NCBI GenBank assembly: GCA_937872095.1
Contig: CALMNW010000022.1
Coordinates: 52,424 to 116,423, forward strand
DNA length: 64,000 nucleotides
Direction of reading: 5' to 3'
Source of the DNA: an uncultured Verrucomicrobiota bacterium
GTDB taxonomy: Bacteria > Verrucomicrobiota > Kiritimatiellia > CAIQIC01 > Lenti-01
A program made the position numbers and the translations under genes. The notes below the pieces were generated by a model, which saw only the letters and a program-made list of their open reading frames with translations, searched no databases and was not told the DNA's origin. This document shows positions 18,037 through 52,311 of the stretch, piece after piece (the first letter of the stretch is position 1; each line of letters opens with the position of its first letter).

Positions 18037-18735
18037 ATGGCGTGGCGATTCGTGATCCACAACCAAGCCTCGGAACCCTACGACGAGGCGGCAATCCGCA
18101 ACCTGATCGACCTGAAGCTGGTGAATGCCGGCACCTTGGCCTGGCGCGAAGATCTCGCGAACTGGACCCCCGCCGGCCAAATCCCCGAACTGGCCGCCTT
18201 GTTGCCGGCGACCGCGACCGCCGCGCCCGGCATCCCGCCCATTCCGGCTGCGGCCGCCGCTTCGGCTCCGCCTCCTCCGCCCGCAGGCGTTCCGCCGCCC
18301 CCCGCGCCCGGCGCGGCGAGCGGCATTTGGGAAGAGCGGGCCCGGCGCTTCGTGTACTGGTGCTTCCGTCCCCGCAACGGCCGCCCCTCGAAGGTCCGCG
18401 CCTACGTCGACGAAAAGCCCGGCCGGGCCATTCCCGTCGCCGCCGCGGTTCTCGCCGCCCTGGTCCTGTCGTTCGCCCTGTTCATCAACTCCTTCAGCCG
18501 GACGCCCGCTCAAGCTGGCGGAGGCAACGGCGGGGGCGGCGGCGCGCCCATGGCCGGCGGGGGCAGCGGCAACACCATGGAAAACTGGTACATCGCCCGC
18601 GACGCCCAGCGCTACAACCAGAACGTGATCGACGACGTCTACCGGAACAACCGCGACTCGTTCGACCGGCAAAGCGAAACCTACCGCCGCGCCAACTACG
18701 ACTGGTACAACGGCAACAACAACAGCGGCGACTGA
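18037..18735 (+). CDS. GYF_2/DUF4339-domain membrane protein
   Basis: N-terminal WRFVIHNQASEPYDEAAIRNLIDLKLVNAGTLAWREDLANWTPAGQIPELAALL; Pro linker; TM segment. Confidence 0.7.
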   Translation: MAWRFVIHNQASEPYDEAAIRNLIDLKLVNAGTLAWREDLANWTPAGQIPELAALLPATATAAPGIPPIPAAAAASAPPPPPAGVPPPPAPGAASGIWEERARRFVYWCFRPRNGRPSKVRAYVDEKPGRAIPVAAAVLAALVLSFALFINSFSRTPAQAGGGNGGGGGAPMAGGGSGNTMENWYIARDAQRYNQNVIDDVYRNNRDSFDRQSETYRRANYDWYNGNNNSGD

Positions 18736-18791
18736 TCCCCCGTCCCCGGCGGCGGGAATCGCGGCTTGCGGCGCCGCAGGCGGGACCCTGG

Positions 18792-18896
18792 TTTTTTCCA
18801 TGCTGTGGAAAAAAGTTTTCCACGGTATGGAAAAATCGGCCGCCGTTTTTCCACGGCGTGGAAAATTCACTCGCAATTTTTCCACGACGTGGAAAA
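18792..18896. repeat. Palindrome array A (4 units TTTTCCAnnnnnTGGAAAA)
   Basis: TTTTTTCCATGCTGTGGAAAAAA, TTTTCCACGGTATGGAAAAA, TTTTTCCACGGCGTGGAAAA, TTTTTCCACGACGTGGAAAA. Confidence 0.93.
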
Positions 18897-18941: not shown

Positions 18942-20534
18942 ATGAACGCCGCGCAGGAAACCGCCCGGCGGCGCACGCTGGCCATCATCTCCCACCCCGA
19001 CGCGGGCAAGACGACGCTCACCGAGAAGCTCCTGCTCTACGGCGGCGCCGTCCAGCTCGCCGGCTCCGTCACCGCCCGCAAGAACCAGCGCGCCACCACC
19101 TCCGACTGGATGGAGCTTGAAAAGCAGCGCGGCATCTCCGTCAGCTCCACCGTCCTCCAGTTCGAATACCGCGATTTCGTCGTCAACCTCCTCGACACCC
19201 CCGGCCACCGCGACTTCTCCGAGGACACCTACCGCGTCCTGATGGCCGTGGACGCCGTCATCATGGTGATCGACGCCGCCAAGGGCATCGAAGCCCAGAC
19301 CCTCAAGCTGTTCGAGATCTGCCGCATGCGCGGCATCCCCATCTTCACGTTCATGAACAAGCTCGACCGGCCGGCGAAGCATCCGCTGGAGCTGATCGAC
19401 GAAATCGAAAACACCTTGCAGATGCACGTCTGCGCCATGAACTGGCCGCTGGGCGACGGCGCCGATTTCCGCGGCGTCTACGACCGGCAGGACAAGATCG
19501 CGCACTTCTTCGAGCGCACGGTCGGCGGCGCCTACCGCGCCCCCGAGGCCCTTCACGCCGTCACCGACGCCGCCGTGCGCGACCGCATGGCGCCCGACGC
19601 CTTCCGGACCCTCGTCGAGGAGTTGGAAATGCTCGACGCCGCCGGCGAAACCTTCGACGCCGCGGCCGTCCGTTCCGGCGACATGACGCCCGTTTTCTTC
19701 GGCAGCGCCATCAACAACTTCGGCGTCCAGCTCCTGCTCGATGCGTTCCTGCAATACGCTCCCCCGCCCGGGCCCCGCAAGGCCGGCGACCTCCTCGTCC
19801 CTCCCGACCATCCTTCTTTTTCCGGCTTCATCTTCAAGATCCAGTCGAACATGGACCCCAACCACCGCGACCAGATCGCGTTCCTGCGGATCTGCTCCGG
19901 CGTCTTCGCGCGCGACATGAAGGCCGTCCACGCCCGCACCGGCAAGGTCATCCGCATGTCCAATTCCCGCAAGATGTTCGCGCGCGAGCGCGAAACCGTG
20001 AACGAGGCGTTTCCCGGCGACGTCATCGGCCTCGTCGGCCATCCCGAATTCGGCATCGGCGACACGCTGACGGAAGATCCGGCCATCGCCTACGATCCGC
20101 TGCCGCAGTTCGCGGCGGAATGCTTCGCCTATCTGCACCATTCCAGCCCCGCGCAATTCAAGCGGTTCCGGGCCGGGCTCGACCATTTGCTGCAGGAAGG
20201 CGCCGTGCAGACCTTCCAGATTCCGGATTCCGGCTCCCGCGCGCCGATGCTGGGCGCCGTCGGCCCCTTGCAGTTCGAAGTGCTGCAATACCGCCTGGAA
20301 ACCGAATACGGCGCGACCACCCGGCTCGAACCGGCCCCCTGGACCATTCTCCGCTGGATCGACCCCGCCGGCGCGCCGGTCACGCCCGAAATGCTGCCCA
20401 GCAGCTGCCGGTTCGCCCTCGACGCCCGCGAGCGCCCCGTCGCGCTTTTTACCGCCGAATGGGAACTCAAGTTCTTCCAGGAGAAGAACCCCCAGGTCGT
20501 CCTCCACAAGCTGCCGTCCGGCCTGACGGCGTAA
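18942..20534 (+). CDS. prfC: Peptide chain release factor 3
   Basis: ISHPDAGKTTLTEKLLLYGGAVQLAGSV; DTPGHRDFSEDTYRVL; full-length 530 aa. Confidence 0.96.
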   Translation: MNAAQETARRRTLAIISHPDAGKTTLTEKLLLYGGAVQLAGSVTARKNQRATTSDWMELEKQRGISVSSTVLQFEYRDFVVNLLDTPGHRDFSEDTYRVLMAVDAVIMVIDAAKGIEAQTLKLFEICRMRGIPIFTFMNKLDRPAKHPLELIDEIENTLQMHVCAMNWPLGDGADFRGVYDRQDKIAHFFERTVGGAYRAPEALHAVTDAAVRDRMAPDAFRTLVEELEMLDAAGETFDAAAVRSGDMTPVFFGSAINNFGVQLLLDAFLQYAPPPGPRKAGDLLVPPDHPSFSGFIFKIQSNMDPNHRDQIAFLRICSGVFARDMKAVHARTGKVIRMSNSRKMFARERETVNEAFPGDVIGLVGHPEFGIGDTLTEDPAIAYDPLPQFAAECFAYLHHSSPAQFKRFRAGLDHLLQEGAVQTFQIPDSGSRAPMLGAVGPLQFEVLQYRLETEYGATTRLEPAPWTILRWIDPAGAPVTPEMLPSSCRFALDARERPVALFTAEWELKFFQEKNPQVVLHKLPSGLTA

Positions 20535-25979: not shown

Positions 25980-27449
25980 TCATGGTTGCACGAACACGTG
26001 CGAATATACAGCCAAATCCATGCGGGTGACATAAACGATAGTCGTCCGGCCCGCCTGCAAAGTTACGTCGCCCGACCAGCGCGTGCCGCCGCCGGGGGCG
26101 GTCAGTTCGACGCGCCGGTTGCCGGGATCGACCCATGCGCCAAGCACTTGGACGTGCGCCGGCAGCGTCAGCCAGCTCCGCAAATCGGCCTGTTCGGAAA
26201 GCACGTTGTAGAGCGTCACCGCCAGCCCGGCCCATTCGCCGCCGTTGCCCCCCTGGTCGTGCGCGGCCTTGGCCGCCACCGCCTTGGCCACGGCCCGCGC
26301 CACCTGCCGCGCCAAAATGCCCGGCATCTGCTCTGCCAGCGCCCGCGCCGCCAAGGCCCCCACGTTGCAGATCGGCGCCGTGCTCGCCAGCGCCTGCCCG
26401 TCCAGCGCCACGCGCACCGGCGCCGTCGGCGACGGCACCTCCGCGTAGGTCGGCAGGGCGATCGACCCGATCGAATCCGCCGACGGCAACGGATAGGCGA
26501 GGGAAATCTCCGATTTCTTCGGCACGAACCCGTCTTCGCACACCACCACCAGCCGGGCCTTCCCCGCCAGCGGATCGCTTCCGGCCGCCGGCATTTTCAA
26601 CGCGCGCGGGAAACGCCGCTCGAAATCCTCCAGATCTTCCCGCATGCCCAGCCGCTTGGCCAGCCGCACCGCATCCATTTGCAGATAGATGTTCTCCGGC
26701 GCGATCTCCAGCGCCTTCTTGACGTCGATGTAGGCGTCGTTCGCCTCCCCCAGCATTTCCCAGATCACCGACGACACGTAGAGCGTCGCCGCGTTCTGGA
26801 ACGACGACTTCACCTCGCCCGCCAGCTGGTCGAGCCCGGCATAGACTGCGCCCAGATGCGGGTCCCGCTCGTCGTCCGGCGCAGCCTCGCCTTCCTTTTT
26901 CTTCGCTTTCGCGATTTCGCGTTCGTGCCGCCGGAGCGCCTGGTCCTGCTCGCGGCTCGCCCGGCGGACTTCGACGCCGGCGCCGGTCAGGTCGCCCTGG
27001 GCCAGATAATTCAGCGCCTGGTAGTGGTGCACTAGCGTCCGCTCGTAGCTCGGGGCGCGGTACGGGATCGTCTTGTCGTTCACCAGCATCGCGCTGCCCT
27101 GCGCCGCCGCGCCCCGCGCCGATATCGCGGCCCGGTTGTCCTGGTCCTCCGTCGCGGCGATCGCCGTCGCGAACGCTGCGCGCGACGCCGCGAAATCGCC
27201 CTCCAGCTGGGCCGTGCGTCCCAATTCCATCGCGAACAGTACGCGCGACGTGCCGTTCAGGCGTTTGCCGAACGTCTTCTGGTAGTCCGGCTTCTGTCCC
27301 GTCCGCAGCGGCTCCAGCGTCGTCTGTTCCATCCCCGCCGGATACTGGCTGAACGTGCCGCAGCCCGCCGCAAGCAGCGCCAGCCAACATCCCAGAACCG
27401 GCCCGCGCCATTTTTGCAGGTTGACGGGAATGGAACGGCCTTTCACCAT
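25980..27449 (-). CDS. COG3014-like lipoprotein with TPR region
   Basis: LLAAGCGTFSQYPAGM lipobox; ERTLVHHYQALNYLAQGDLTGAGVEVRRASREQDQALRRHE. Confidence 0.82.
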   Translation of the reverse strand: MVKGRSIPVNLQKWRGPVLGCWLALLAAGCGTFSQYPAGMEQTTLEPLRTGQKPDYQKTFGKRLNGTSRVLFAMELGRTAQLEGDFAASRAAFATAIAATEDQDNRAAISARGAAAQGSAMLVNDKTIPYRAPSYERTLVHHYQALNYLAQGDLTGAGVEVRRASREQDQALRRHEREIAKAKKKEGEAAPDDERDPHLGAVYAGLDQLAGEVKSSFQNAATLYVSSVIWEMLGEANDAYIDVKKALEIAPENIYLQMDAVRLAKRLGMREDLEDFERRFPRALKMPAAGSDPLAGKARLVVVCEDGFVPKKSEISLAYPLPSADSIGSIALPTYAEVPSPTAPVRVALDGQALASTAPICNVGALAARALAEQMPGILARQVARAVAKAVAAKAAHDQGGNGGEWAGLAVTLYNVLSEQADLRSWLTLPAHVQVLGAWVDPGNRRVELTAPGGGTRWSGDVTLQAGRTTIVYVTRMDLAVYSHVFVQP

Positions 27450-27473
27450 AGACCGGAAATCATAGCACCCCCC

Positions 27474-28304
27474 ATGCCTCCGGACAGCCAAAATCTCGTT
27501 TGGATCGACGCCCACAGCCACCTGCAGGATCCGCGCCTCGCGCCGCATCTGCCGGGCGTTCTCGCCCGCGCCCGCGCCGCCGGCGTCCGCCGGCTCCATG
27601 TCGACGGCACCTGCGAGGCCGACTGGCCCGCCGTTTGCGCCTTGGCCGACGCCCATCCGGACCTGATTCTCTGCTCGTTCGGCGTTCATCCCTGGTTCAT
27701 CCGGGACCGCAGCGCCCGTTGGCTGCTGAATCTGCGCGACATCCTCGCCTCCCGCCCGGCCGGCATCGGCGAAATCGGCCTCGACGCCCGCCTGGACGAC
27801 GGTCTCGACGCCGATCGCGAAGCCGTTTTCCGCGCCCAGCTCGAGCTCTCGTACGAACTCGCCCTGCCCGCCAGCCTGCATTGCCGCGACGCCTGGGGCC
27901 CGATGCTCGAAATTCTCCTGGCCCTGCCGCCGCATCCCGTCGGGTTGCTCATCCACGCCTACTCCGGCCCCGCCAACGCCCTCGCGGCCCTCGCGGAAAA
28001 AAACGTGCACGTGTCTTTCGGCGGCACCTTGACGCGCCCCAAGAATGCCCGCGCCCGCGAAAACGCCGCGCGCGCGACCGCCGGCCGGTTCCTGCTCGAA
28101 TCCGACGCCCCCGACCTGCCGCCGACCCTGCCCGAGGACGCGGAAAAGCACTTGATCGGTGACGACGGCAAGCTGCTCTCCGAACCCGCCTACGTCCCCG
28201 CCGTCGGCCAAATCCTCGCGGATCTGCGCGGCACGACGCCCGGCGACATCGCCGCGCAAACCACCGCCGCCGCGAATCGCCTCTTCGCGAAGCTCTTGGC
28301 CTGA
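27474..28304 (+). CDS. TatD-family metal-dependent hydrolase
   Basis: IDAHSHLQDPR; CSFGVHPWF; GEIGLDAR; LHCRDAW; LLESDAPDLPP. Confidence 0.9.
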   Translation: MPPDSQNLVWIDAHSHLQDPRLAPHLPGVLARARAAGVRRLHVDGTCEADWPAVCALADAHPDLILCSFGVHPWFIRDRSARWLLNLRDILASRPAGIGEIGLDARLDDGLDADREAVFRAQLELSYELALPASLHCRDAWGPMLEILLALPPHPVGLLIHAYSGPANALAALAEKNVHVSFGGTLTRPKNARARENAARATAGRFLLESDAPDLPPTLPEDAEKHLIGDDGKLLSEPAYVPAVGQILADLRGTTPGDIAAQTTAAANRLFAKLLA

Positions 28305-28378: not shown

Positions 28379-28513
28379 TTTTTACGTAGCGTGGAAACAT
28401 TTTTTCCACGGTGTGGAAAAATCGGGCAACATTTTTACGTAGCGTGGAAAAATCCCGCAAAGTTTTTACGTGCTACGTAAAACTCGCCGAAAGTTTTTAC
28501 GTTCCACGTAAAA
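28379..28513. repeat. Palindrome array B (5 units incl. arm-switched TTTTACGT/ACGTAAAA forms)
   Basis: TTTTTACGTAGCGTGGAAA, TTTTTTCCACGGTGTGGAAAAA, TTTTTACGTAGCGTGGAAAAA, TTTTTACGTGCTACGTAAAA, TTTTTACGTTCCACGTAAAA. Confidence 0.93.
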
Positions 28514-29143
28514 CTACCGCAGCGTGGACCAGGTCGCGCCGTCGCGCGCCTTGTAGCGGGCGATCACGCCGTTGTCGCCCGTTTTCCGGTACCAGGTGAA
28601 GCCCGCCGTCGGCGCCTTGTTGCTCAGCGCCTTCGCCTTCTGCGGGCGAGGGCCCAGGCTCCAGACCGCCCAGGCCAGCGGGCTGTTCGGCGAGTCGTCC
28701 GCCTTGCCGCTCGCTTCTTGGCACGAAGGAAAATCGGCGGGCACCCAGACGGGATAGCGGTCGGGCTGCATCGACCCGTTCATCCAATACCGCTCCGGCG
28801 CGGCGTATTTGTACGTGCTGCCGGGATGGAACGGGTCCTCGAGCAAGGTCGAGGTTTTCGTCTGCGGGTTGTGCGGCAGGTAGTTGCCGTCGGCCAGTTC
28901 CTGCGGCAATTGCAGCACTTCCTGCTGGTCGATGGCCATGCACGACACCACCACGGGCGGGTAGCTGCCGTGGTCGGCGCGGTACGCTTCCAGCGCCACC
29001 TCGACCGTCTGCAAGTCGGACACGACGCGCGCGACGCGCGCGCGCTCGACCGCGCCCAGCAGCGGCACCGCCGCCAGGGCGGCCAACAGGGCCAGCACCG
29101 CCACCGCAACCACCAGCTCGATCAATGAAAAGGCGTTCTTCAA
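28514..29143 (-). CDS. Type II secretion-like pseudopilin (TTG start)
   Basis: LKNAFSLIELVVAVAVLALLAALAAVPLL prepilin N-terminus; start overlaps upstream stop. Confidence 0.85.
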   Translation of the reverse strand: MKNAFSLIELVVAVAVLALLAALAAVPLLGAVERARVARVVSDLQTVEVALEAYRADHGSYPPVVVSCMAIDQQEVLQLPQELADGNYLPHNPQTKTSTLLEDPFHPGSTYKYAAPERYWMNGSMQPDRYPVWVPADFPSCQEASGKADDSPNSPLAWAVWSLGPRPQKAKALSNKAPTAGFTWYRKTGDNGVIARYKARDGATWSTLR

Positions 29144-30225
29144 TCGACCTTTCTCAGGCGATAGGCGCGATTGGGCGCATCGCCGTCGTCTTCGATCACG
29201 ATTACCTTGAGCGGCATGGCGTTCACTTCGCTCCAGGTCTGCAGGCCGTCGTCCGACGCCTCCAGCACGTAGCCTTCGTAGTCCGACGAGAAGCTGACGG
29301 CCATCCGGCCGGCGACGTGGGTCCCGACGTCCAGCGTCGGTCCGATTTCCTGCACGAACAGCTCGTAGCCGTTCGTATAGCCGTTTTCCTGGTTCAGGAT
29401 GCCCACGGCCGAAAACCAGGCCGAGGTGGCCGGCGGCTCGCCCAGATCCGTCAACGGCATCCGCAGCGGCAAGCTGCGGCCGGCGCCGTCGGTCGCCGTG
29501 CAGATTCGCTCGGCCCAATTGGTTTTGCCCCAGCCGTTCGTGGTCGCCAGCCGGATGCCGTCGAGGCGCACGCGCAGGCCCTGCCAATGCTCGCCGCCCG
29601 TCGCGCGCGTCGCGTCGAAGATCGCGCTGTCGTCCGCGTTCTTCAAATCCGCCAGCGTCACAGCTTCCGCCTGGGGCAGGCCCGCGTTCGCTTTCACCAG
29701 GACGACGTCGAAATCGTAGGAAGTCGCGATCCGGTGGTTTTCGTTGATGTTGCGCTTGCCGCCGTAGAACAGCGCCTTGCGGGCCGTCACTTCGATCAGG
29801 TCGCCCTTGCGGAACTTGCGGCCGTTGGCGTCGTATTGCACTCGCCGCATTTCGTTCGTCCAGTCCGCGCCGTAGTCGTTGCCGACCGGGATCCACCCAC
29901 CCATCGCCTCGTAGTTCTGGGCCATCCAGAGCGCGGTGCCGCCGCGATCGCCGGCATCGACGGCCTGGAAAAACACTTGGTACATCCCGCCCGTATATCC
30001 CATCGCCGTGGCCGTCGGATCGTAGGTCGGATCCAGCATCTCCTCCGGATCGTTCACGATCACGCCGCGGATCGCGAAGGGGAAGCTCGTCGGGCTTTCC
30101 ACCCAGGCGGTATAGCCCGTCGAATTCACGGACTGCAATTCCGCGTGCGTCATGACCGCCGTCTGCGCAGACGCCGCCGCGCCGCAGATCATCGCTCCCA
30201 GCGCCGCCATCCAGATCGTTTTCAC
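29140..30225 (-). CDS. Secreted protein of unknown function
   Basis: Signal peptide MKTIWMAALGAMICGAAASAQ; 361 aa; beta-rich with internal OB-like EVTARKALFYGGKRNINE segment. Confidence 0.6.
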   Translation of the reverse strand: MKTIWMAALGAMICGAAASAQTAVMTHAELQSVNSTGYTAWVESPTSFPFAIRGVIVNDPEEMLDPTYDPTATAMGYTGGMYQVFFQAVDAGDRGGTALWMAQNYEAMGGWIPVGNDYGADWTNEMRRVQYDANGRKFRKGDLIEVTARKALFYGGKRNINENHRIATSYDFDVVLVKANAGLPQAEAVTLADLKNADDSAIFDATRATGGEHWQGLRVRLDGIRLATTNGWGKTNWAERICTATDGAGRSLPLRMPLTDLGEPPATSAWFSAVGILNQENGYTNGYELFVQEIGPTLDVGTHVAGRMAVSFSSDYEGYVLEASDDGLQTWSEVNAMPLKVIVIEDDGDAPNRAYRLRKVD

Positions 30226-47235: not shown

Positions 47236-48465
47236 ATGACAAAGCTCATCGGCCAATACCCCGACGCCACCGGCCACTTCGGTCCCTACGGCGGCCGCTT
47301 CGTCGGCGAAACCCTCATGTCCGCCCTCCTCGACGTCGAGGCCGCCTGGACGTCCGCCAAGAACGACCCCGCGTTCATGGCCGATTTCCGCGCCATGCTG
47401 CGCGACTACGCCGGCCGGCCCACGCCCCTCGACTGCGCCGAACGCCTCTCCGCCCACGTCGGCGGCGCGCGCCTCTGGCTCAAGCGCGAGGATTGCACGC
47501 ACACCGGCGCGCACAAGATCAACAACGTCGTCGGCCAGGGCCTGCTCGCCCGCCGCATGGGCAAGAAACGCGTCATCGCCGAAACCGGCGCCGGCCAGCA
47601 CGGCGTGGCCACCGCGACCATCGCCGCCCGCTTCGGCTTCGACTGCAAGGTCTTCATGGGCGCGGAGGACATCCGCCGCCAGGCGCCCAACGTCCGCCGC
47701 ATGGAACTGCTCGGCGCGCAGGTCGTCCCCGTGACCTCCGGCACCAGCACGCTCAAGGACGCGATGAACGAAGCCCTCCGCTACTGGTCGAGCGCCAGCG
47801 ACGACACGTTCTACGTCATCGGCACCGTCTCCGGCCCGCATCCCTATCCCGAAATGGTCCGCGACTTCCAGCGCGTCCTCGGCGACGAAGCCCGCGCGCA
47901 GTTCCTCGAAAAATGCGGCCAGCTGCCCGACCTGCTCGTCGCCTGCGTCGGCGGCGGCTCGAACGCCATGGGCCTGTTCTATCCCTTCCTCGACGATCCC
48001 TGCGAGATGATCGGCGCCGAAGCCGCCGGCGACGGCCTCGACACGCCGCGCCACGCGGCCTCGCTTTGCGGCGGCTCGCCCGGCGAACTCCACGGCGCCC
48101 TGACCTATCTCCTCCAGAACGACGAAGGCCAAATCCACGAGGCCTGGTCCATTTCCGCCGGCCTCGACTATCCCGGCGTCGGCCCCGAACACGCCCTGCT
48201 CCACGATTTGAAACGCGTCCGCTACGAAGGCGTCACGGACCAGGAAGCCGTCGCCGCCTTCCAGGCGCTTTGCCAGTTCGAAGGCATCATCCCCGCCCTC
48301 GAAAGCTCCCACGCCCTCGCCGCCGCCTTGCGCGAAGCGAAAAAGCGCCCCGCGACGCAAAACGTCCTCGTCAACCTCTCCGGCCGCGGCGACAAGGACC
48401 TCGACCACGTGACCCGGTACCTGAAAGAAGTCGGAGGTCAGAGGTCGGAGGTCGGGAAAGAATGA
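47236..48465 (+). CDS. trpB: Tryptophan synthase beta chain
   Basis: [64 protein letters not shown]. Confidence 0.98.
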
Positions 48466-48600
48466 TCCCCCGATCCACCAATCGCGGCCCGTCTCCCTCC
48501 GTCCGGTTTTCCACGCTATGGAAAACTTTTTTCCACGGTGTGGAAAAATTTCAATCCCCTCCCCCCTGAACTCCGACCTCTGAACTCTGACCTCTATAAA
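48425..48600. repeat. trpB-trpA junction composite: CAGAGGT tract, palindrome array C, inverted CAGAGGT tract
   Basis: AAGAAGT CGGAGGT CAGAGGT CGGAGGT (48425-48452); TTTTCCACGCTATGGAAAA (48507-48525) and TTTTTTCCACGGTGTGGAAAAA (48527-48548); CTGAACT CCGACCT CTGAACT CTGACCT (48566-48593). Confidence 0.9.
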
Positions 48601-48605
48601 ACGCC

Positions 48606-49406
48606 ATGAACAGAATCACCGCCGCCTTCCAACGCCTCGCCAAAGAGAACCGCAAAGCCCTCGTCGGCTACTTGACCGCTGGGGACCCGAATCCGGAAAC
48701 GAGCTTCGAGATTCTTCGCGCCGCCTGCGGCGCCGGCATCGACGTCCTCGAACTCGGCGTACCCTTCTCCGATCCCACCGCCGACGGCCCCGTCATCCAG
48801 GAAGCTTCCCAGCGCGCCCTCAAAGCCGGCATGACGCTGACCAAGACCCTCGATTTCGCCGCGCGCCTGCGCCGCGAGTCGGACATCCCCATCATGCTGT
48901 TCGGCTACTACAACCCCCTCTTCAAGTACGGCCTCGACCGCCTCGCCAAGGCCGCGTACGCGGCCGGCGTCGACGGGCTGCTCGTCGTCGATCTCCCGCC
49001 CGAGGAAGCCGGCCCGCTGCGCGCCGCGCTGAAGGACACCGACATCCAGATCGTCTTCCTCGTCGCCCCCACCACGCGGCCCGACCGCGTGCAGAAGATC
49101 GCGCGGGAAACCGGCGGATTCCTGTATCTCGTCACCAAGGCCGGCACTACCGGCGAAGGCGGCTTGGATTACGAAGCCATCCGCAAACACGCCGCGGAGG
49201 TCAAGGCCGTCAGCCCCCTGCCCGTCTGCCTCGGCTTCGGCATCCGCAACGGCGCCGACGCCCACCAACTCGCGCCCATGGCCGACGGCATCATCGTCGG
49301 TTCCACCCTCTGCAACGTCATCGGCTCCGCCCCCGACGCCCCCGACCTCCCCGCGCGCATGGTCGCCAAGATCCGCGACCTCCGCGACGGCCTCGACGCG
49401 AATTGA
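48606..49406 (+). CDS. trpA: Tryptophan synthase alpha chain
   Basis: LVGYLTAGDPNPETSFEIL, LELGVPFSDPTADGPVIQEAS, GLLVVDLPPEEA, LGFGIRN. Confidence 0.97.
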   Translation: MNRITAAFQRLAKENRKALVGYLTAGDPNPETSFEILRAACGAGIDVLELGVPFSDPTADGPVIQEASQRALKAGMTLTKTLDFAARLRRESDIPIMLFGYYNPLFKYGLDRLAKAAYAAGVDGLLVVDLPPEEAGPLRAALKDTDIQIVFLVAPTTRPDRVQKIARETGGFLYLVTKAGTTGEGGLDYEAIRKHAAEVKAVSPLPVCLGFGIRNGADAHQLAPMADGIIVGSTLCNVIGSAPDAPDLPARMVAKIRDLRDGLDAN

Positions 49407-49448
49407 CATCCATTTGCCGCGTTGCTAAGGTGGCGGCGAGGTGAACGC

Positions 49449-52288: not shown

Positions 52289-52311
52289 ATTTTTCCACGC
52301 TATGGAAAAAT
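52289..52311. repeat. Palindrome D: ATTTTTCCA-CGCTA-TGGAAAAAT
   Basis: Single unit of array family, upstream of tpx. Confidence 0.88.

Follow-up and report, generated by a model that had tools for sequence, protein, structure and literature searches.

The described systems that come closest to the palindromic arrays reported here are the REP and BIME elements of enterobacteria, Pseudomonas and Stenotrophomonas, the Rickettsia palindromic elements (RPEs), the parS sites of ParB/Noc, and the repeated sites of NrdR and of plasmid iterons. REP elements are high-copy extragenic palindromes which form composite arrays, typically lie after genes, carry a terminal GTAG/CGTC tag and are linked to RAYT transposases, and in BIMEs they alternate in orientation. 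RPEs are palindromic repeats maintained in frame within coding genes. The half-site TTCCAC occurs in some parS sequences, and Noc has many sites per genome. NrdR boxes about 31 bp apart and plasmid iterons about 22 bp apart are bound cooperatively on one helix face. For BIMEs, binding by IHF, DNA gyrase and Pol I has been reported (PMC2817692).

The window, the whole stretch of 64,000 nt analysed here (C22:52424-116423), comes from G000, a Kiritimatiellia MAG of 3.33 Mb. Between a gene with a GYF_2 domain and prfC, it carries a row of four palindromic units (array A), and the three further loci named by the first-pass annotation are real, corresponding to array B (28380-28513), array C (48507-48547) and a single unit D (52291-52309). 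The units and the neighbouring genes are as follows:

18037-18735, plus strand: GYF_2 domain gene (Pfam PF14237), its stop codon 58 bp 5' of array A
18794-18812, no strand: array A unit 1, TTTTCCA-TGCTG-TGGAAAA, centre 18803
18816-18834, no strand: array A unit 2, TTTTCCA-CGGTA-TGGAAAA, centre 18825, 22 bp past unit 1
18847-18865, no strand: array A unit 3, TTTTCCA-CGGCG-TGGAAAA, centre 18856, 31 bp past unit 2
18878-18896, no strand: array A unit 4, TTTTCCA-CGACG-TGGAAAA, centre 18887, 31 bp past unit 3
18942-20534, plus strand: prfC (RF3; Pfam PF16658), array A lying between it and the GYF gene
27414-28304, plus strand: TatD DNase gene (Pfam PF01026), its stop codon 75 bp 5' of array B
28380-28398, no strand: array B unit 1, hybrid TTTTACG-TAGCG-TGGAAAC, with one arm mismatch
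28402-28420, no strand: array B unit 2, CCA/CCA
28433-28451, no strand: array B unit 3, hybrid TTTTACG-TAGCG-TGGAAAA
28464-28482, no strand: array B unit 4, ACG/ACG
28495-28513, no strand: array B unit 5, ACG/ACG
28514-29896, minus strand: pilin-like ORF with N_methyl motif (Pfam PF07963), its end abutting array B, its start position uncertain
47236-48465, plus strand: trpB-type PALP gene (Pfam PF00291), 5' of array C
48507-48525, no strand: array C unit 1
48529-48547, no strand: array C unit 2, 22 bp past unit 1
48606-49409, plus strand: trpA (Pfam PF00290), 3' of array C
52291-52309, no strand: single unit D, 47 bp past a stop codon and ahead of a redoxin gene

Each unit comprises 19 bp, TTTT-N11-AAAA, and is built of two inverted half-sites of 7-9 bp. 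The first-pass annotation had described near-perfect palindromes; many units depart from perfect symmetry, positions 8-12 often being asymmetric. Its count of the centres and steps of array A (22, 31 and 31 bp) is exact. Array B occupies the convergent gap between tatD and the pilin-like ORF, where five units follow one another at steps of 22, 31, 31 and 31 bp and TTTTCCA and TTTTACG half-sites are mixed. Within the window, TTTTCCA-N5-TGGAAAA was observed 8 times and TTTT-N11-AAAA-N12-TTTT-N11-AAAA 5 times, against 0.00 expected from shuffled windows in both cases. The genome-wide pattern search that had been proposed as a check returned 179 TTTTCCA-N5-TGGAAAA units in the 3.33 Mb of G000 as compared to 0 for the reversed-pattern control. 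Orthologue comparison placed an array 5' of prfC also in G001-G004 and G012, and the trpB/trpA gap of G001 holds one in the same place as array C. A second, genome-specific repeat is present at positions 18754-18768 of the window, GGGAATCGCGGCT in G000 and CCGGCGCGGGAAGGCGCCG in G001, and recurs in many intergenic gaps of these two genomes, often beside arrays and also where there are none. Array C is flanked on both sides by GAGGTCGGAGGTC-type sequence in inverted orientation (48435-48460 and 48567-48595), a motif with further copies elsewhere in G000.

TTTTCCA-type units are common within the genus, family and order to which G000 belongs, with a maximum of 720 per genome, are patchy elsewhere in the class and are represented beyond it by stray matches only; in a scan of named genomes, the matching stretches bore titles such as Kiritimatiellae, Lentisphaerae, Verrucomicrobia and uncultured bacterium. 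A phage element was rejected, since all viral contigs of the collection together gave a single match. The first-pass annotation had named no matching family, and none was found, with 0 matches to Rfam covariance models at gathering score in the window and nothing relevant found in the literature on Kiritimatiellia and palindromes.

Where linker sequence is free, the spacing of the units is held to two or three helical turns. The histogram of centre-to-centre distances suggested by the first-pass annotation contains only 22, 30 and 31 bp for neighbouring units in the 764 kb of G000 read in detail, and in G001, which belongs to the same genus, neighbours lie 21-22 or 30-31 bp apart over 1.1 Mb. 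A pattern allowing every gap of 2-14 bp (spacing 21-33) was used to scan 116 named stretches, in which neighbour distances were 21-22 (n=53), 29-32 (155), 41-43 (5), 51-53 (17) and 61-63 bp (6), the last three classes making up most of the distances outside 21-22 and 29-32, with zero neighbours at 23-28, 33-40 or 44-50 bp. Distances near 52 and 62 bp may reflect a decayed unit hidden between two others. In another family, f22, whose arms read TTTTCCGA-N3-TCGGAAAA, 54 of 56 pairs have exactly 12 bp between units (31 bp centre to centre) with gaps of 1-31 allowed, namely all 29 pairs of G337 and 25 of the 27 pairs of G192. The f22 linker sequences are unrelated and yet this distance is kept, which argues that the geometry is selected and not merely inherited. 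With the same gaps allowed in G006, a member of the same genus as G000, all pairs among those listed (most of 76) fall at 30-32 bp. The arm-agnostic TTTT-N11-AAAA pair pattern has its spacing preset to 30-32 bp and hence was left out of these spacing claims. Whole-turn spacing together with free linker sequence, by which a helically phased array is recognised, is found here, with steps of 22 and 31 bp that are close to, and not exactly, 21.0 and 31.5 bp.

Many units of G000 and G001 are asymmetric: a CCAC[GA] half is paired with a CCAT[TAG] half or, in G000 alone, with ACGTA. Where two such units are neighbours at 31 bp, they have the same orientation in 55 cases and the opposite one in 1, and are therefore direct, head-to-tail repeats. 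Once oriented, the 12-bp linkers of f1 are similar between arrays and partly conserved (ACTTT-S-GGC-S-GRT), so that an initial view that all linkers differ is true of f22 and was abandoned for f1. Given this partial conservation and the head-to-tail units, tandem duplication may account for part of the 31-bp regularity in f1; it is not applicable to f22. The 22-bp doublet is usually found at the closing end of the array (8:2, 5:1). Arrays have no preferred orientation relative to the gene upstream (8:11, 5:8), and their orientation has no link to GC skew or replication strand.

The arms vary with lineage, being TTTTCCA in most genomes, TTTTACG in G006 and TTTTCCGA in f22. Within the genus, G001, G004 and G005 have CCA units only, G003 has CCA units and 22 CCA/ACG hybrids, and the 764 kb read of G000 contain 55 CCA/CCA, 19 hybrid and 7 ACG/ACG units. 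In G006 the ACG type is dominant, with 158 ACG units vs 16 CCA units, and a CCA-type search found no array at prfC. Loss of the system in G006 was considered and dropped, since the arm-agnostic search recovered 82 pairs, nearly all TTTTACG, meaning that the arms had switched. The series from CCA through hybrid to ACG across the genus indicates that half-sites switch singly, which is what binding by a dimer would lead one to expect. The prfC tree did not resolve the placement of G006 beside G000 or the order of events.

When arrays were placed with a strand-aware gene model in G000 and G001, they were found in co-directional and convergent gaps, at a median of 31 bp (G000) and 33 bp (G001) past the stop codon. 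Of 70 arrays, 6 were called divergent, some of these being gene-calling errors; the numerous divergent or intra-ORF placements in early gene calls were mostly due to antisense ORFs, and most of them were removed by this model. The same position 3' of genes was seen at many loci inspected in other families. Between orthologous gaps of G000 and G001 array positions turn over and some gaps are empty. As a point against protein sites, the confinement of arrays to gene 3' ends might mean no more than that insertions are tolerated there.

At least one gene is read through its array. It is a sugar-nucleotidyltransferase gene, which in G000 contains four units in frame, and at least eight relatives (at least nine genomes including G000) carry an array of 2-7 units at the same place of the orthologue, while the orthologue of G013 is without it. 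Spacings within this gene are, for example, 22+31+31+22+30+22, and the units listed keep to 22, 30 or 31 bp except for one 127-bp step over a foreign insert. The 35 units in nine orthologous genes have 0-2 arm mismatches each, and the preservation of the arms although dS is about 0.5-1.7 was counted in favour of protein sites. The coding part beyond the array has dN of about 0.12-0.31 and a dN/dS of about 0.1-0.25, showing that it is translated and hence that the array does not stop transcription; the arrays between trpB and trpA in G000 and G001 carry the same message. In nine species or more, the nucleotidyltransferase (L268-L279) tolerates the array-encoded insert of 20-60 residues, always at one position. 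A repeat, CTATAGCGCCGCGC...GGCGAGCGAGCG, forms an in-frame insertion inside the G002 copy of this array (L276) and also borders arrays of G000 (C14:56010 and C14:87200).

As compared to the described systems, the arrays share with RPEs a palindromic repeat in frame inside a coding gene; however, this is the one known in-gene case, arrays being otherwise intergenic, and the unit is much shorter and arranged in phased arrays. A TTCCAC half-site in common with some parS sequences and many sites per genome recall Noc, whereas the arms CCAAG, CCAAT, ACG and CCGA do not fit and arrays take the place of single sites. ParB/Noc, an idea that came from this half-site, was rejected: an extra paralogue was not found in carriers, and 55 of 57 genomes, with units or not, have one strong HTH_ParB match, a single chromosomal-type ParB being nearly everywhere. 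Repeated sites at about 31 or 22 bp are in common with NrdR boxes and iterons, which are few sites at one promoter or origin in contrast to the hundreds of loci after genes observed here. In copy number, extragenic position after genes and composite arrangement the arrays resemble REP elements. Unlike REPs, however, they have fixed two- or three-turn spacing, arms that vary by lineage and no RAYT link; the units are not edged by a GTAG/CGTC tag (the sequence there, in oriented linkers, is ACTTT...GAT, AAG or CTT), and asymmetric units run head to tail and not in the alternating orientation of BIMEs.

This REP/BIME likeness underlies the main rival explanation, that of selfish repeats, in which non-autonomous palindromes are copied by a transposase and tolerated after genes, with the spacing inherited from the copied module. 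It accommodates the high copy number and extragenic 3' position, the composite build of the arrays, whose oriented linkers are conserved in f1, the turnover of positions between G000 and G001 with some orthologous gaps empty, the spread of new half-site variants and the mobile-element-like ends that adjoin some arrays. On the other hand, counts of PF01797 (RAYT/Y1) do not track units (2 in G000, 2 in G017 with 720 units, 0 in G010 with 72 units), a unit was nearby at only 1 of 18 Y1 loci checked outside G000, and RAYT transposases were rejected as drivers on both counts. The missing edge tag and the exact 31-bp distance across unrelated f22 linkers speak against copying as well. A REP-like origin is on balance unlikely, and such a repeat population could also hold together with protein sites.

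An RNA multi-hairpin element of 3' UTRs or a transcription terminator would suit arrays that begin about 31-33 bp past stop codons, and the predicted fold of the array A transcript is strong (-61.5 kcal/mol, z -7.2; second folding test z -4.5). However, low folding energy is not telling, because any palindrome or palindrome array folds well. On the sense strand U.G was not preferred over C.A (30:24, p=0.50), and positions 9/11, with GT 31 vs AC 21 (p=0.21), gave no pairing-preserving bias. Complementarity between units 31 bp apart in G001 was below shuffled expectation, and inter-unit pairing exceeded expectation only in the pooled set of named stretches, in which many symmetric units are present and the shuffling mixed genomes that differ in their cores. 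Neighbours that are asymmetric and point the same way spoil inter-unit hairpins, the arrays point either way with respect to the gene at random, and a ten-bp period of the linkers would have no meaning in a single-stranded RNA. The multi-hairpin RNA which the first-pass annotation had offered as one option, with pairing inside a unit or from unit to unit, was rejected in view of the negative wobble and covariation tests despite low folding energies. Terminators were likewise rejected, as terminator-like hairpins are neither enriched nor depleted at arrays (Fisher p 0.28 and 1.0), one array is contained in a gene that is translated and under purifying selection, and the trpB/trpA gap holds another; the earlier remark that the spacing is too regular for ordinary terminators thus holds. 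An RNA or terminator function is highly improbable. Operators of an ordinary regulon, that is local repressor or activator sites, would explain dimer-like palindromes, some of them 5' of genes such as prfC, but up to 720 units per genome lie 3' of unrelated genes, and convergent gaps and coding sequence are occupied rather than promoters. This reading is disfavoured, its probability being very slight.

The units are probably cooperative operator arrays for a putative dimeric, sequence-specific DNA-binding protein whose specificity evolves. Each 19-bp unit would be the site of one dimer, and dimers would sit side by side on one helix face, spaced by two turns (22 bp) or by three (29-32 bp), with neighbouring units presumably bound cooperatively. 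RNA polymerase would pass the arrays, and the role would be neither promoter control nor termination. From a geometry that is fixed while the sequence is replaceable, from single half-site switching, indifference to direction and maintenance inside a gene, we infer a dimeric protein on phased sites, and position at gene ends together with copy number suggests a structural role of the BIME kind, possibly anchoring or supercoil control. The first-pass annotation had raised a multi-site protein-binding array as its other option, and this part is supported by the class-wide two- or three-turn spacing, free arms and linkers, random orientation and half-site switches; its cognate protein was not found, with RAYT and ParB ruled out and no gene family recurring beside arrays as a possible binder.

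A broader proposal is tentative and rather doubtful, namely that the arrays constitute a class-wide, undescribed chromosome-organising system, in which a putative nucleoid-type protein binds hundreds of phased gene-end arrays, and its specificity would be exchanged along with all of its sites, one half-site after another, among close relatives (from CCA by way of hybrids to ACG, with CCGA elsewhere). If one protein binds the arrays, they would represent a global DNA-organising system specific to a class rich in uncultured members and a natural experiment on the joint change of specificity in a protein and its hundreds of sites, the old (CCA), mixed (hybrid half-sites) and new (ACG) states all being found in one genus. 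The conserved two- and three-turn spacing predicts that adding a half-turn to a linker should break function. If the arrays are instead a REP-like family, they would even so add to the extragenic palindromes a new kind that does not depend on RAYT.

G056, of the same class, has 63 Y1 (IS200/RAYT-type) transposase matches, far above its relatives. In G000, arrays at contig breaks are bordered by a shared sequence, CACACGCTTTCGGACATTCCCAA, that looks like the end of a mobile element, as though arrays were the target of an IS; the contig starts are the following:

C13:1-70: CACACGCTTTCGGACATTCCCAA site (L036)
C14:1-70: CACACGCTTTCGGACATTCCCAA site (L024)
C34:1-57: CACACGCTTTCGGACATTCCCAA site (L052)

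Another such end, GGGACAGCCCTGG, interrupts a unit near C16:18930.
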